Under the pieces are notes generated by a model. It had not been told where the DNA came from and did no database searches. It worked only from the letters and a program-made list of their open reading frames with translations. 56,814 bases of DNA from assembly GCF_000739655.1 (NCBI RefSeq), contig NZ_BATR01000033.1, forward strand, positions 1 through 56,814, written 5' to 3'. The position numbers and the translations under genes are program-made. Positions 4,460 to 10,672 of the stretch are shown in pieces (positions within the stretch are counted from its first letter, which is position 1; every line of letters begins with the position of its first letter). The stretch comes from Verrucomicrobium sp. BvORR106 (GTDB lineage Bacteria > Verrucomicrobiota > Verrucomicrobiia > Verrucomicrobiales > Verrucomicrobiaceae).

Positions 4460-4515
4460 TGCAGTCATGCTGCGACATCGCACGACTGGAGGATTGTGGG
4501 CTCTGATGGGGGGCT

Positions 4516-4864
4516 AAGGGTTATAGGATATCACAAGGGGTGCCAAAGCGGTGATTCTCACCGCAGTCCCAAAAGCGCTGCGCGCTCAGGGGTTGGACGT
4601 GATGAGAAGCTTGGGGAGCGCACGCATCTTGCGTGCTGTTCCTGGCATCCTGCCGGGAACGATGATGTGGCAAGCTGTATGGCACCTCTTTTGCCTGAAG
4701 ACCGTCAACACCTGATCCCGACTTGTCGGGATTTTGGGAGTGCGGCGAGAATCGCCGCTTTCGGGAGCCCTGTGTCGGACAAATGGAGTGTTGAGGAAAG
4801 CAGAGTGGCAAGGCGTCCTTGAAGCGGGATCCGCCAGTTGGCAAAGGGTTATAGGAAATCACAA
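4516..4864. repeat. Hairpin-array element between 21 bp direct repeats
   Basis: This occupies most of the gene-free stretch 4460-5067. Near-identical direct repeats (core AGGGTTATAGGA) lie at 4516-4536 and 4844-4864 with one mismatch. Between them are short-loop hairpins: 4548-4564 (GCGGTGA, loop TTC), 4620-4636 (GCACGCA, loop TCT), 4639-4659 (TTCCTGGCA, loop TCC), 4715-4732 (ATCCCGAC, loop TT) and 4742-4758 (GCGGCGA, loop GAA). The first and last are inverted copies of each other with flanking sequence conserved (CCCAAAA) and one compensatory stem pair (T-A versus C-G). Reading frames here are not convincing. The remainder, 4865-5067, shows nothing I can name. Confidence 0.7.
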
Positions 4865-5067
4865 TTGCGTTGGACGCGTTGATTTGAATGGGAAATCTTA
4901 GGGGCTTGCAGTGCTGGAGAAATCCAGCTCGGATACATCCACCCGTCCCACCGTATCCGATCCTCTGTGCCAGCGCGCCCCCTGCTTGCTTGGCTACAAG
5001 AGATAGGATCGTTTAGGCGGTTCTAAAGCCCTTGCCTATGGTGCGGGGGACGGGGTGGCCGTACCCC

Positions 5068-6450
5068 ATGAGCATGGAAATGGAAACACTTACCCCCAAG
5101 ACCCCGTCCGCCCGGCGCCGGAGGCTTCGCCCGAGGATCGCCATGGTTTCCACCCACGGTTATGTCGCTGCCAATCCGCCGCTGGGCGCACCCGATACTG
5201 GAGGTCAGGTGGTGTATGTGCTGGAGCTCTCCCGCAAGCTGGCCCAACTGGGTTTCAAGGTGGATATCTGGACGCGCAGGTTCGAGGAACAGCCTGAACG
5301 TGAGGTGGTAGATGAGAATGTGACCATTCTGCGGATGCCCTGCGGAGGGAAAGATTTCATTCCCAAAGAAACGCTGGTGAACAAGCTGCCAGAGTGGGTG
5401 GAGCATGCGCTGCGCTACATTGACCGGCATGATTACTCTTATCAGTTCATCAACAGCCACTACTGGGACGCCGGCGTGGCTTCACAAAGAATGGCAGAGG
5501 CGCTCGGCATTCCGCATGTGCACACGCCTCACTCACTGGGCGCGTGGAAGCGCAGCCAGATGAAGGCCGATGCTCCAGAGGAGGTGGCCGATCTCGACAA
5601 GAAATACAACTTCCCCGTGCGCATTCGCGAGGAGCAGGCGCTCTACCGGGCCTGTGATCTGGTCGTGGCCACCTCTCCGCAGCAGTTCGACCTCCTGCGC
5701 TCTGACTACAACCTGCCTGCGGACGTCATTCGCATGATCCCACCAGGGTACGACGACACCCGCTTCTTCCCGGTGAGCATCGCGAGCCGTCAGGCGCTAC
5801 GTGAGTCCTTCGGTTACCAGGGGAAGGTCATCTTCTCGCTGGGCCGCCTGGCGCGGAACAAGGGCTTTGATCTCCTTATCCCGGCCTTTGAAGTGGCGGC
5901 CGCCCGCAAGGACGATGTCTGGCTGCATCTCGCGGTTGGGCAAGTTTCCTCAGACCCCGGAAACAGTCCGCTGCTGGAGGAGATGCGCGGGCTTATTTCG
6001 CAGAGCCCCTACCGGGACCGCATTGTGCTTTCTGATTCCGTGTCCGATGAGGAGCTGGCCGACCGCTACCGTGCGGCGGACGTGTTTGCGCTCTCCAGCC
6101 GCTATGAACCGTTTGGCATGACGGCGGTGGAGGCCCTGGCCTGCGGCACACCCACCGTGGTCACCACCCATGGCGGGCTCTATCGCGCGTTGGACTTTGG
6201 CGTGCATGCCATCTATGCCGACACCCTGGACAAGGAGGAGTTCGGCATCGCCCTGCTTCAGGCCACGAAGTACGACCGCCTGCGGGAGCGTCTGGGCCGC
6301 CTGGGCAGCCAGCGGGCTCGCAGCCTCTTCACGTGGACGGGCATCGCCCAGCAGGTGCTGCGTGAGCTGGAGGACCGCCTTTCACCGGAATCCCTTCTGG
6401 ACCCCCACCCTTCCTTCGTGCCGGCGGGCACCACGCCTTCGTTTGTTTGA
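5068..6450 (+). CDS. GT4 glycosyltransferase, sucrose-phosphate-synthase-like
   Basis: About 460 residues of a GT-B retaining glycosyltransferase. The N-terminal domain opens with IAMVSTHGYVAANPPLGAPD followed by TGGQVVYVLELSRKL, the acceptor-site pattern of sucrose-phosphate synthase, sucrose synthase and mannosylfructose-phosphate synthase. The C-terminal domain has FSLGRLARNKGFDLL and the nucleotide-sugar motif YEPFGMTAVEALACGTP (E-x7-E). The start at ATG 5068 is chosen over 5038 because a purine-rich stretch (GGGGACGGGG) precedes it and the conserved region still begins about 25 residues later. The next gene starts 15 bp downstream and encodes a sucrose-phosphatase-like domain, so the pair probably makes a phosphorylated disaccharide or sugar glycoside and removes the phosphate. 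The donor and acceptor are not determined. Confidence 0.9.
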   Translation: MSMEMETLTPKTPSARRRRLRPRIAMVSTHGYVAANPPLGAPDTGGQVVYVLELSRKLAQLGFKVDIWTRRFEEQPEREVVDENVTILRMPCGGKDFIPKETLVNKLPEWVEHALRYIDRHDYSYQFINSHYWDAGVASQRMAEALGIPHVHTPHSLGAWKRSQMKADAPEEVADLDKKYNFPVRIREEQALYRACDLVVATSPQQFDLLRSDYNLPADVIRMIPPGYDDTRFFPVSIASRQALRESFGYQGKVIFSLGRLARNKGFDLLIPAFEVAAARKDDVWLHLAVGQVSSDPGNSPLLEEMRGLISQSPYRDRIVLSDSVSDEELADRYRAADVFALSSRYEPFGMTAVEALACGTPTVVTTHGGLYRALDFGVHAIYADTLDKEEFGIALLQATKYDRLRERLGRLGSQRARSLFTWTGIAQQVLRELEDRLSPESLLDPHPSFVPAGTTPSFV

Positions 6451-6465
6451 CCTTGAACCTTCTGC

Positions 6466-8574
6466 ATGCCTGACGCTACTGAAACCTCCCCTGCCAGTCC
6501 CGTCCTGCCCATCCGGCTCGCCTGTTTCGATCTCGACGGCACCCTGCTGGGCAAGCCCGACGCCACCCTGAATTTTCAGCGGGCCTGGCTGGCTCTGCCG
6601 GAAGACACCCGCCCCGTGCTGGTGTACAACACGGGGCGCATGCTGGCGGACAGTCTGCGCCAGCTCCGCCGCACGGACCTGCCGCCGCCCGACTACCTCA
6701 TCTGCGGGGTCGGCACCCTCATCTACCGCCGCGAGACGCAGGAGGTGGTGCAGGAGTTCTCGGAAATCATGAGCGGCGGGTGGAACCGGGCGAAGGCGGT
6801 GGAGGTGGTCACGCAGACCACCCATGCCGTGCCGCAGCCAGCGCACTTCCAGTCCCCTTTTAAATCAAGCTGGTACCTCCACCATGCCTCCGCCGAGGTC
6901 ATCGACGGCCTGCGTGCCGCGCTGGAGACGGCCGGGCTCCAGGCCACGGTGGTGTACTCCAGTGATCGGGACCTCGACGTGTTGCCCATGCTGGCGGACA
7001 AGGGCAACTCCCTGGACTGGTTGCTCAATCACCTGGGCATCTCCACGGCCGAGACCCTGGTGGCCGGGGATACAGGAAATGACGCCGCCATGTTCCACCT
7101 GGAAGACGTGCGCGGCATTGTGGTGGAAAACGCCCAGCCCGAGCTGCTGGAGGCCGTGCTGACCACCCGGCCGTACATGGCCCATGCCATTTGCGCAGAT
7201 GGCGTGCTGCTGGGCATGAAGCACTTCGGCCTCATCCAGGTCCTTCCGGCTCCCACCCCGGAGGATCCCAGCCACACGCGATTCACTCCAGAGATCCAGC
7301 AACTGCTCCAGCAGGCCCCCACCGATGAACTGAAGCCGGAGGAGGTGGAGTTCTTGAAGACGGCCTACCAGAAGGCCGTGGAGGCACTCAAGAAGAACAT
7401 CACCCCCATGGGCTTTTCCGCCTGCTCGCTGGCGGAGAATGAAGTGCGCGGCACGGATGCGAACTACCGCAGCGTCTGGGGCCGGGACGGGGCCATCACC
7501 GTGATCGGCTGCATGAGCCTGGAGGACGCCGAGGTGGCGGAGTGCCGGGTGCGCACTCTGGAGACCCTGCTCTCCAATGTCTCGCCCAATGGTCAGATCC
7601 CGGCCAACGTCAACATCGACACCGGACTGCCTGACTACTCTGGTGTGGGCGGCATCTGTGCCATCGACAGCGGCCTGTGGGTCGTCATCGCCGCGTATGA
7701 GCATGTCCGCACCAGCAAGGATCTCCCGTTTGCGCGCAAGTGGGTCGGCACCCTGCAGAAAGCCATGGACTGGCTGGCGGCGCATGACTCGAACAACGAC
7801 GGACTCCTGGAGATCCCGGAAGCAGGCGACTGGACGGATCTCTTCGGTCGCTCGTACAACGTGCTGCTGGACGAGGTGCTCTGGTACCGGGCGAACATCG
7901 CCTTTGGCCGCCTGCTGGAGATGCTGGGCGTCTCTGGTCGCGCTGGCGACTACGTGCGCCGTTCCCAGACGATCAAGGCCGTGATCATGCAGCGGTTCTG
8001 GCCCAGCACCGCCCCGGTGCCTGAGGCCTCGCCGCGCAGCTTCGCGGACATGCAGTACAGCCTGGGCGACACCAGCTACCTGCTGGCCCAGGTCACCCCG
8101 TTTGCCTTCAACTGGCGCTGTGACGTTTACGGCAACATCCTCGCGTTCCTCTTCAACGTCATGGATCTGGACCGGGCCCGCCACGCCTTTCGCTTCATGT
8201 GGGGGGTGGGGGTGAATGACCCCTTCCCTGTGGCCAATCTGTACCCGGTGGTCCAGCCGGGCGATCCCGACTGGCGACCGTACTACACGGTGAACCTGCT
8301 CAACCTCCCCGGGCATTATCACAACGGCGGCATCTGGCCGTACATCGGCGCGGCTTGGGTGCGCTTTGTGAACCGGCTCGGGTTGCGCGTCCTGGCGCGG
8401 CAGGAGCTGCTCAAACTCGCCCGGCTGAACCAGCGCGGCGTGCTGGGGGATTGGGAGTTCAACGAGTGGGCGCACGCCCGCACGGGCAACCCCATGGGCA
8501 AGATCAAGCAGGCCTGGTCGGCTAGCGAATTCCTGCTCGCCTGCGAGGAACTGGAAATTCAGTCACATTTTTGA
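6466..8574 (+). CDS. Fusion: HAD sugar phosphatase + (alpha/alpha)6 glycosidase-like domain
   Basis: 702 residues with two domains. Residues ~15-260 are a HAD-IIB phosphatase of the sucrose-phosphatase type: motif [10 protein letters not shown] (Asp22/Asp24), motif II VYNTGR, motif III Lys in [11 protein letters not shown] and motif [10 protein letters not shown]. Residues ~300-700 are a helical glycosidase-like domain with [52 protein letters not shown] and [14 protein letters not shown], resembling glycogen-debranching and related (alpha/alpha)6 enzymes. The phosphatase should release the free glycoside made by the upstream glycosyltransferase. A hydrolase for such a glycoside on the same chain is odd: it could recycle the product, act on another sugar, or be non-catalytic. 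The domains are clear; the joint function is inferred. It is in one operon with the upstream gene, and transketolase follows. Confidence 0.85.
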
Positions 8575-8692
8575 CCGATTGTTCACAAGTCCGCCGGAGC
8601 GGCCGTCCCGGCCCTGCATTCGCCCTTGCATCCCGCCCCGTGAAAGCTATGTAGCGCGCCTTTGCAGAATTTATTGCTCCGCAGAAAACACG

Positions 8693-10672
8693 ATGAACAA
8701 AGCCATCCTCTCGAAAGCCGCCAATGAAGCCCGTGGCCTTGCCATGGACGCCGTCCACAAGTGCAACTCCGGTCACCTGGGTCTGCCTCTTGGCGCCGCG
8801 GAAGTAGGAGCCGTGCTTTTCGGCGAGACCCTGCAGTGCGATCCTGCCAGCCCCAAGTGGCTCAACCGCGACCGCTTCATCCTCTCCGCCGGTCACGGCT
8901 CCATGTTCATCTATTCCTGGCTGGCCCTTTCCGGCTATGACCTTTCCGTTGAGGAGTTGAGCAAGTTCCGCGCGCTGCGCAGCCACACCCCGGGTCACCC
9001 AGAGTCCTTTGAGACCGTGGGCGTGGAGTGCACCACCGGCCCCCTCGGCCAGGGCGTGGGCAACGCCGTCGGTTTCGCGCTGAGCGGCAAGATGGCCGCC
9101 GCGAAGTACAACACCGCGGAGCACACCATTTTTGACAACCACATCATCGCTCTCGCCGGCGACGGCTGCCTTCAGGAAGGCGTGGCCCGTGAAGCGGTGG
9201 CCTTCGCCGCCCACAACGGCCTGGACAACCTGATCCTCATTTTCGACTCCAACGACGTCACGCTCGACGCCATGGCGAAGGTGACCCAGAGCGAAGACAC
9301 CCAGAAGCTTTTCGAAGCCCTCGGCTGGGACGCCGTGACCATCGACGGTCACGATCTCGACGCCATCAAGAGCGCCGTGGAGACGGCCAAGGCCACGAAC
9401 AACGGCAAGCCCAAGATCATCATTGCCAAGACCCTCATCGGCAAGGGCATCCCGGAAGTGGCCGGCACGGCCAAGGCCCACGGTGAAGGCGGCGCCAAGT
9501 TCATCGACGCCGCCCGTCTGGCTCTCGGCCTTCCTGCCGACCAGCACTTCTTCGTGAGCGACGAGGTGAAGGCTTACTTCGCCGACCTCAAGGCCCAGCG
9601 TGGTGCCGCACACGCCGAGTGGACCAAGACCTTTGACGCCTGGGCGGCCGCCAACCCGGCGCTTAAGGGCGAGCTGGACAACAGCGTGAACTACGAGCAT
9701 TCCGCTGAGGAGTTGCTGAAGCTCATCCCCGAGTATCCCGCTGAGAGCAAGGCCGCCACCCGCAACAGCGGTGGTGAGATCTTGAACCACATCGCCAAGG
9801 CCGTTCCGAATGTCATCACCGGCAGCGCCGACCTCTTCGGTTCCACCAAGAATTACATCAAGGACGGTGGCGATTACTCCGCCGCGAACCCGACCGGCCG
9901 GAACATCTGGTTCGGCATTCGTGAGCACGCCATGGGCGCCATCTGCAACGGCGTGGCTTATGACGGCCTCTTCCGCATCAGCGGTGCCACCTTCTTGGTG
10001 TTCGCCGACTACTGCCGCCCCAGCATCCGTCTGGCCTCCCTGTCCAAGCTCCCTGTGGCTTATATCTTCACACATGACTCCGTGGGAGTGGGTGAAGACG
10101 GCCCGACCCACCAGCCGGTGGAAACCGTCAGCGGTCTGCGCGTGATCCCGAACCTCGATGTCATCCGCCCGGGCGACAGCGAAGAGTGCGCCGCTGCTTT
10201 TGCCGCTGCCTACAGCCGCAACGATGGCCCGACGCTTCTGGCCCTCTCCCGTCAGGACCTGCCCAACCAGGGCGGCACCCCTGCCTCCGTCCGTCGCGAA
10301 GGCACCCTCAAGGGTGGCTATGTGCTCGTGAAGGAAACCGGCGCGCTCAAGACCATCCTCCTCGCCACCGGCTCCGAAGTGCAGCATGCCGTGGATGCCG
10401 CCAAGCAGCTTGGCGAAGGCGTCCGCGTCGTCAGCCTTCCCTGCTTCGAGCGCTTCGACCGCCAGACCCAGGCCTACCGCGATGAAGTGCTGCCTCCCGC
10501 AGTCACCAAGCGCGTCGCCATCGAGGCCGGTGTTTCCGCCCTCTGGTGGAAGTACGTCGGCACCGAAGGCAAGATCATCGCCATCGACCGCTTCGGCCTC
10601 AGCGCCCCTGGCAATGTCGTCATGAAGGAACTCGGCATCACCGCCGACAGCGTTGTGGCCGCTGCGCAGTAA
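8693..10672 (+). CDS. tkt: Transketolase
   Basis: 659 residues, the usual length. It transfers two-carbon units between sugar phosphates in the non-oxidative pentose phosphate pathway, using thiamine diphosphate and Mg2+ in the cytoplasm. The signature [19 protein letters not shown], the phosphate-site [26 protein letters not shown], the ThDP motif GDGCLQEG...FDSND, and the pyrimidine-domain [14 protein letters not shown] and [16 protein letters not shown] are all present. ATG 8693 is selected because homology starts at once; in-frame codons upstream to 8579 have no family match. It lies 118 bp after the phosphatase-glycosidase gene and ends in a strong terminator, so it probably closes that transcription unit or has its own promoter in the gap. 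Confidence 0.97.

Follow-up and report, generated by a model that had tools for sequence, protein, structure and literature searches.

The window, by which is meant the whole stretch of 56,814 nucleotides analysed from contig NZ_BATR01000033.1 of Verrucomicrobium sp. BvORR106, contains a gene that encodes a phosphatase domain and a glycosidase-like domain in one chain. The gene starts 15 bases downstream of the stop codon of a glycosyltransferase gene and is followed by a transketolase gene. The features of the locus are:

5032-6450, + strand: GT4 glycosyltransferase, predicted to be a sucrose-6-phosphate synthase that has no HAD domain (best PDB match TeSPS, 6kih)
6466-8574, + strand: fusion protein of 702 amino acids from the ATG, consisting of a sucrose phosphatase (SPP) domain, a linker of about 30 residues and a GH100-like domain
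6523-7233, + strand: sucrose-6-phosphate phosphatase domain (HAD-IIB, S6PP), residues 20-256 (PF05116)
7333-8571, + strand: GH100-like (alpha/alpha)6 glycosidase domain, residues 290-702 (profile and predicted fold)
7837-7839, + strand: codon of Asp458, predicted catalytic acid (InvA Asp188, alignment to GH100)
8464-8466, + strand: codon of Glu667, predicted catalytic base (InvA Glu414, alignment to GH100)
8579-10672: transketolase, after the fusion gene (Pfam scan)

A promoter scan and a terminator scan of positions 4500-8800 gave one site each, which is at or below the result for shuffled sequences.

The fusion of phosphatase and glycosidase is genuine. The scan of genome contigs with the fusion protein returned 33 loci, 28 of which are labelled Verrucomicrobiota. 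The other five carry the labels Spirochaetales (L009), Blastochloris (L019), Nealsonbacteria (L024), 'bacterium' (L030) and Desulfuromonadales (L033); they are mostly metagenome-assembled genomes (MAGs) and these labels may be binning errors. The locus L002, from Verrucomicrobium sp. BvORR034, is 97% identical to the window. The loci of the contig scan and those of a sample of 288 genomes from the phylum of the window (Verrucomicrobiota) together gave 48 rows with more than 550 query residues matched, counting L017 although its first 36 residues are missing at a contig end. L002 is identical to L035 over the gene and L020 to L049, and the number of distinct sequences is 46 with the window included. 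The catalytic residues were counted in an alignment, A1, of 46 rows without L001 (the window), L002 and L035, and those of both halves are present in 45 or 46 of the rows. Between the window and L002 the dN/dS ratio is 0.058 for the HAD domain, 0.084 for the linker, 0.023 for the GH domain and 0.030 for the GT4 gene. Purifying selection thus acts on both halves of the fusion, and this together with the conservation argues against a chance read-through or a pseudogene.

The first half of the protein was read as a phosphatase in the preliminary description, and this is supported by profile, fold and catalytic residues. PF05116 matches residues 20-256 with an E value of 8.7e-61 (206.1 bits, cut-off 20.3), and the Synechocystis SPP structure 1s2o matches the HAD half with E 2.1e-30 and aligns to the predicted fold with a VIA Z of 29.3 and an rmsd of 2.9 over 239 residues. 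Asp22, Asp24 and Thr26 are found in 45 of the 46 A1 rows, the remaining row being gapped there, while Lys179, Asp202, Asn205 and Asp206 are found in all 46. They form the HAD catalytic motifs DxDxT, Lys and GDxxND. Fold and catalytic residues are common to the Synechocystis enzyme and the phosphatase half of the fusion, but the fusion has a glycosidase domain behind the phosphatase in the same chain, and its HAD half gives 162.8 bits with the SPP equivalog TIGR01485, about 21 bits short of the cut-off of 183.65.

The second half is, judged by sequence profiles and predicted fold, closest to the GH100 alkaline/neutral invertases and not to GH15, GH63 or the debranching enzymes. The Pfam matches alone cannot decide the family; the C-terminal part matches Glyco_hydro_100 (6.8e-11), MGH1-like (2e-7) and GDE_C (2.3e-7), all above their cut-offs. 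PF12899 gives 42 bits against a cut-off of 23.6, with the best stretch at positions 273-429 of the 435 in the profile. Among the PDB sequences, a profile built from 22 GH domains had eight matches with an E value no higher than 0.001. Invertases of GH100 occupy the top four places (1.9e-16 to 1.5e-13, with InvA present twice); a rhamnosidase (1.6e-6), two sequences of glucosylglycerate hydrolase (3.9e-4) and a phosphorylase (6.5e-4) come after them.

The model of the whole protein (pLDDT 78.3) has low confidence around the GH active site. Foldseek placed 1s2o and InvA on top with this model, and in VIA InvA (Z 29.7) was tied with an entry titled Glycosidase (Z 30.6) and with other (alpha/alpha)6 families. 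Because of the weak active site and the tie, the GH domain was modelled again with 44 wider sequences. This second model, of the GH domain alone, has a pLDDT of 88.6. With Foldseek its first 28 rows are all GH100, with InvB in complex with sucrose on top (2.9e-15), and the next family begins at 1.0e-10. VIA has GH100 structures in its top seven rows (Z 36.6-38.7, rmsd 2.8-3.1, 376-384 residues aligned), and the next row has a Z of 34.9. The (alpha/alpha)6 domain of the preliminary description is accordingly present, and in the comparison of the four enzyme groups that it named GH100 is the nearest. The same fold is found in the GH63-type mannosylglycerate/glucosylglycerate hydrolases, YgjK, a GH15 glucoamylase and an archaeal debranching enzyme, with VIA Z values of 34.1 (4wvb), 31.6 (5ca3), 31.1 (1lf6) and 32.4 (7vma). 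Compared with GH100 these have a lower Z in VIA, come later in Foldseek and are weaker or unlisted in the profile search, and an assignment of residues 290-702 to them was rejected. Phosphorylases with this fold, for example GH94, also appear in VIA. The (alpha/alpha)6 phosphorylases are not known to have a catalytic base Glu; the base Glu667 is invariant, and a phosphorylase was likewise rejected.

The catalytic pair of the GH100 enzymes is retained. Asp188 and Glu414 are named as the catalytic pair of InvA (PMC6995568), and Asp458 and Glu667 of the fusion align with them, the chain numbers used in the matching being one above the published InvA numbers. Both residues are found in 46 of 46 A1 rows and in 44 of 44 wider relatives. 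The domain shares with the GH100 invertases (InvA and InvB of Anabaena, CINV1 of Arabidopsis) the predicted fold across its whole length, the Asp/Glu pair and the motifs NY..RD, DS..W and YHNGGxWP. It differs from them in being joined behind a sucrose phosphatase, in an identity of 16-21% in structural alignments and in two active-site features. Arg430 of InvB, reported to help in deprotonating the catalytic base (PMC6995568), has no counterpart in the profile alignment, where the family has a gap of three residues at this position (counted by hand), and the GH100 run DRRMG after the catalytic acid is not retained. The domain is therefore called GH100-like, and is possibly a new family neighbouring GH100.

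The missing Arg430 could also be taken as a sign that the GH domain has lost its enzymatic function and regulates the phosphatase as a scaffold or a sugar sensor, and an unregulated phosphatase-invertase would waste energy. Such a role is very improbable given that the catalytic acid and base are invariant in the fusion and in the wider relatives and that the dN/dS of the GH domain is as low as 0.023.

The GT4 protein upstream is sucrose-phosphate-synthase-like, as was noted in the preliminary description. Its best solved relative is the sucrose-phosphate synthase (SPS) of Thermosynechococcus elongatus (6kih, E 6.4e-46). Among the catalytic and phosphate-binding residues of this enzyme taken from PMC7264703, Gln51, His158, Arg178, Arg249, Glu331 and Glu339 are retained, several of them common to GT4 enzymes, and four are changed (Arg105 to Lys, Arg253 to Asn, Ala48 to Thr and Leu335 to Met). 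The protein is below the cut-off both of the SPS model TIGR02472 (174.8 bits, cut-off 576) and of TIGR03449, the model for the inositol-phosphate glycosyltransferase MshA (194.0 bits, cut-off 462.5). The GT4 tree, from which one short row (L086) was left out, gave the window-type sequences as a clade of their own (19 of 39 rows, support 99/99) apart from canonical SPS, with long branches meeting there and an unsure placement.

A window-type GT4 gene is located upstream of the fusion on the same strand in 40 of the 48 rows. In three rows (L053, L055 and L056) a canonical SPS, with 614.6, 598.8 and 608.7 bits against the TIGR02472 cut-off of 576, is found just downstream of the fusion in place of the GT4. 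The remaining five have no partner in the DNA fetched; one of them is L017, which has no upstream DNA, and the other four have a GT4 in the genome, which in two cases is on the same strand some 2 kb upstream. That either synthase can stand next to this fusion is the strongest evidence on the intermediate, and it points to sucrose-6-phosphate. The connection with sucrose first proposed from the window is borne out.

Mannosylfructose is made by enzymes of the same GT4 and S6PP families. With a GT4 below the SPS cut-off, the whole cassette might instead make and break another fructoside, for example mannosylfructose from GDP-mannose and fructose-6-phosphate. This is improbable, as the gene that replaces the GT4 in the three loci is a canonical SPS and the donor and phosphate contacts of TeSPS are mostly retained in the GT4 itself.

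In the canonical SPS proteins of these three loci the HAD part lacks the second Asp of its DxD motif and the first one of GDxxxD (read by eye), so the fusion would supply the working phosphatase. The SPS proteins beside the fusion (L122, L123 and L124) retain this degenerate HAD domain, which resembles the phosphatase domain of Synechocystis SPS, described as non-functional (PMC4390843). In a MAG labelled Akkermansia muciniphila (L018:2372-8235) about 2.4 kb separates the GT4 from the fusion gene.

The GH domain follows the phosphatase throughout the phylum sample, in which at most three candidates per genome were scored for the fusion and at most six for the GH profile. The GH profile had matches at 1e-10 in 27 of the 288 genomes, 25 of them below 1e-200 and the other two near 1e-11 with part of the profile covered only. 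In 23 of the 25 the GH domain is fused to the HAD (SPP) domain, and in the remaining two, G251 and G178, separate genes for SPP, GT4 and GH lie next to each other on the same strand. The domain is in this way fused to or beside SPP in all 25. G277, grouped in the genus of G251 and G178, has SPP and SPS and gave no match to the GH profile; the GH half is therefore dispensable there. The fusion had been called unusual, but it is not peculiar to this genome, being found in 23 of the 288.

More distant relatives of the GH domain occur in the class to which the genome of L033 belongs, in 14 of 78 genomes. G337 has GH and S6PP as separate neighbouring genes and a canonical SPS elsewhere. The other 13 genomes, G337 excluded, have standalone GH100-like proteins (L097-L108 and L111-L114, open frames of 399-529 amino acids). 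The identity of the standalone relatives in this class is 31-34%. No SPS was found at E 1e-40 in the four genomes with a standalone GH that were checked (G317, G352, G329 and G345), and no HAD or GT4 match was seen around the GH gene in these, the gene of G317 being at a contig end. The wider GH clade therefore probably acts on other substrates. In the phylum of the genome of L009, 3 of 120 genomes matched and the only close match is in L009's own genome, which makes transfer or misbinning possible there.

These relatives in genomes with no SPS detected are one reason to consider that the substrate of the GH domain in the fusion is a different alpha-glucoside (a glucosylsucrose oligomer, glucosylglycerate or a short alpha-glucan, for instance), the domain then having only the wider sugar economy in common with the phosphatase. 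The GDE_C and MGH1-like models above their cut-offs and the missing Arg430 agree with this, as does the glucosylsucrose synthase gene that adjoins SPS in Thermosynechococcus (PMC9909042). However, GH100 is clear of GH63, GH15 and the debranching enzymes by both profile and fold, and in all 25 genomes of the phylum sample the domain is linked to SPP. Another alpha-glucoside is thus possible but rather unlikely, and the alpha-glucan that the preliminary description offered for the second domain is the weaker option because GH100 stands out.

The fusion-type GH domain is the sole place where GH100 was found in the genomes searched for it. Eight of the 25 genomes, each from a different genus, were searched with PF12899 at a threshold of 0.001 and gave 10 matches, all in frames of fusion-type GH domains; among 14 control genomes only Synechococcus elongatus had a match. 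GH32 was found at 1e-10 in two of the eight genomes and in 4 of the 14 controls, and was not found at this threshold in the other six, including the genome of the window. The search for sucrose synthase gave no match in the eight genomes and none in the control genomes, and is uninformative.

Sucrose hydrolysis by the second domain, with synthesis and breakdown tied one to one, is the reading of the cassette that we consider probable, although well short of secure. The GT4 would make sucrose-6-phosphate by glucosylating fructose-6-phosphate, with UDP-glucose as the probable donor. The HAD domain, as its family and catalytic residues suggest, would remove the phosphate and release sucrose. The GH100-like domain would then use Asp458 as the acid and Glu667 as the base to split this sucrose into glucose and fructose; sucrose as its substrate is suggested by the relationship to the invertases and a predicted fold. 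That one chain completes and may also break the same product, as first suggested for this gene, is still the reading best supported by sequence and models. Against the pathway are the GT4 below the SPS cut-off, the missed TIGR01485 cut-off, the missing Arg430, the standalone relatives in genomes with no SPS detected and the example of G277. The simultaneous making and breaking of sucrose also costs energy unless it is regulated.

With the opposite steps tied one to one, the sucrose pool would be set by regulation of the domains and not by separate expression of two genes. Salt that slows the invertase half, for example, would turn the fusion from a breaker into a maker of sucrose. Ions are described as activating SPS and lowering invertase activity in Synechococcus elongatus (PMC9971976, a review). 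If there were no such control, UDP-glucose would be wasted by the pair, or the pair would serve to yield free glucose and fructose. A doubtful extension of the sucrose pathway is that the fusion is a valve, in which the sucrose released by the phosphatase is passed to the invertase domain or withheld from it by ions or phosphate, with the GH half as a new family next to GH100. If this were true, the bacteria would either store sucrose or, with no pool of it, convert UDP-glucose and fructose-6-phosphate to free glucose and fructose. The pairing recurs in many relatives and may serve as a built-in control of the sucrose level, or in the channelling of a sugar, which the preliminary description also proposed.

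The novelty would lie in a new domain arrangement of known kinds of enzymes. The available text of PMC4390843 names the synthase alone and the synthase-phosphatase as arrangements, and in the parts of PMC4390843 and PMC9971976 at hand the breakdown of sucrose is carried out by separate proteins, and any fusion named is one of synthase with phosphatase. The bidomain SPS of plants, cyanobacteria and other bacteria is similar to the fusion in that a sucrose phosphatase is joined to another enzyme of sucrose metabolism (PMC4390843, PMC9971976). The partner there is the synthase, whereas the phosphatase in the window is joined to an invertase-like hydrolase and the synthase has a gene of its own. 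A phosphatase-invertase fusion appears in no title among the literature matches listed, which is weak evidence, with subscription papers mostly outside the search.

A fusion with both activities would show that opposite steps of sucrose metabolism can be locked one to one in a single chain. Sucrose turnover would become testable with one purified protein, and the making of sucrose would extend into this bacterial phylum, which is not known to be photosynthetic. The natural series of fused domains, separate neighbouring genes and genomes in which the GH half is absent makes it possible to ask why the fusion persists.

Some loci have a different arrangement of the same domains. In the Nealsonbacteria-labelled MAG (L024:434-3770) GT4 and SPP are on one strand and GH is a separate gene on the other, and the label may be a binning error. 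A frame in an Opitutaceae MAG (L031:2744-4153) consists of the first half of a GT4 (30-197) and the last part of a GH domain (436-698), and would be the product of a deletion across the cassette or of faulty assembly.

The neighbours of the fusion have no clear common theme in the Pfam scans of chosen neighbours and the clustering of neighbour open reading frames. The transketolase was rejected as a member of the system; it is beside the fusion only in the window and in L002 among 34 loci searched, some of them short. In G337 the genes for a transaldolase, GH and S6PP are found in a row (L115:5497-8951), and in the window the fusion is followed by the transketolase; this link to enzymes of the pentose-phosphate pathway may be due to chance. 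Upstream in the window, at positions 1038-2836 on the minus strand, is a putative M56/BlaR1-like membrane peptidase with an HELGH motif that adjoins a putative BlaI-like repressor, both identified by reading only.
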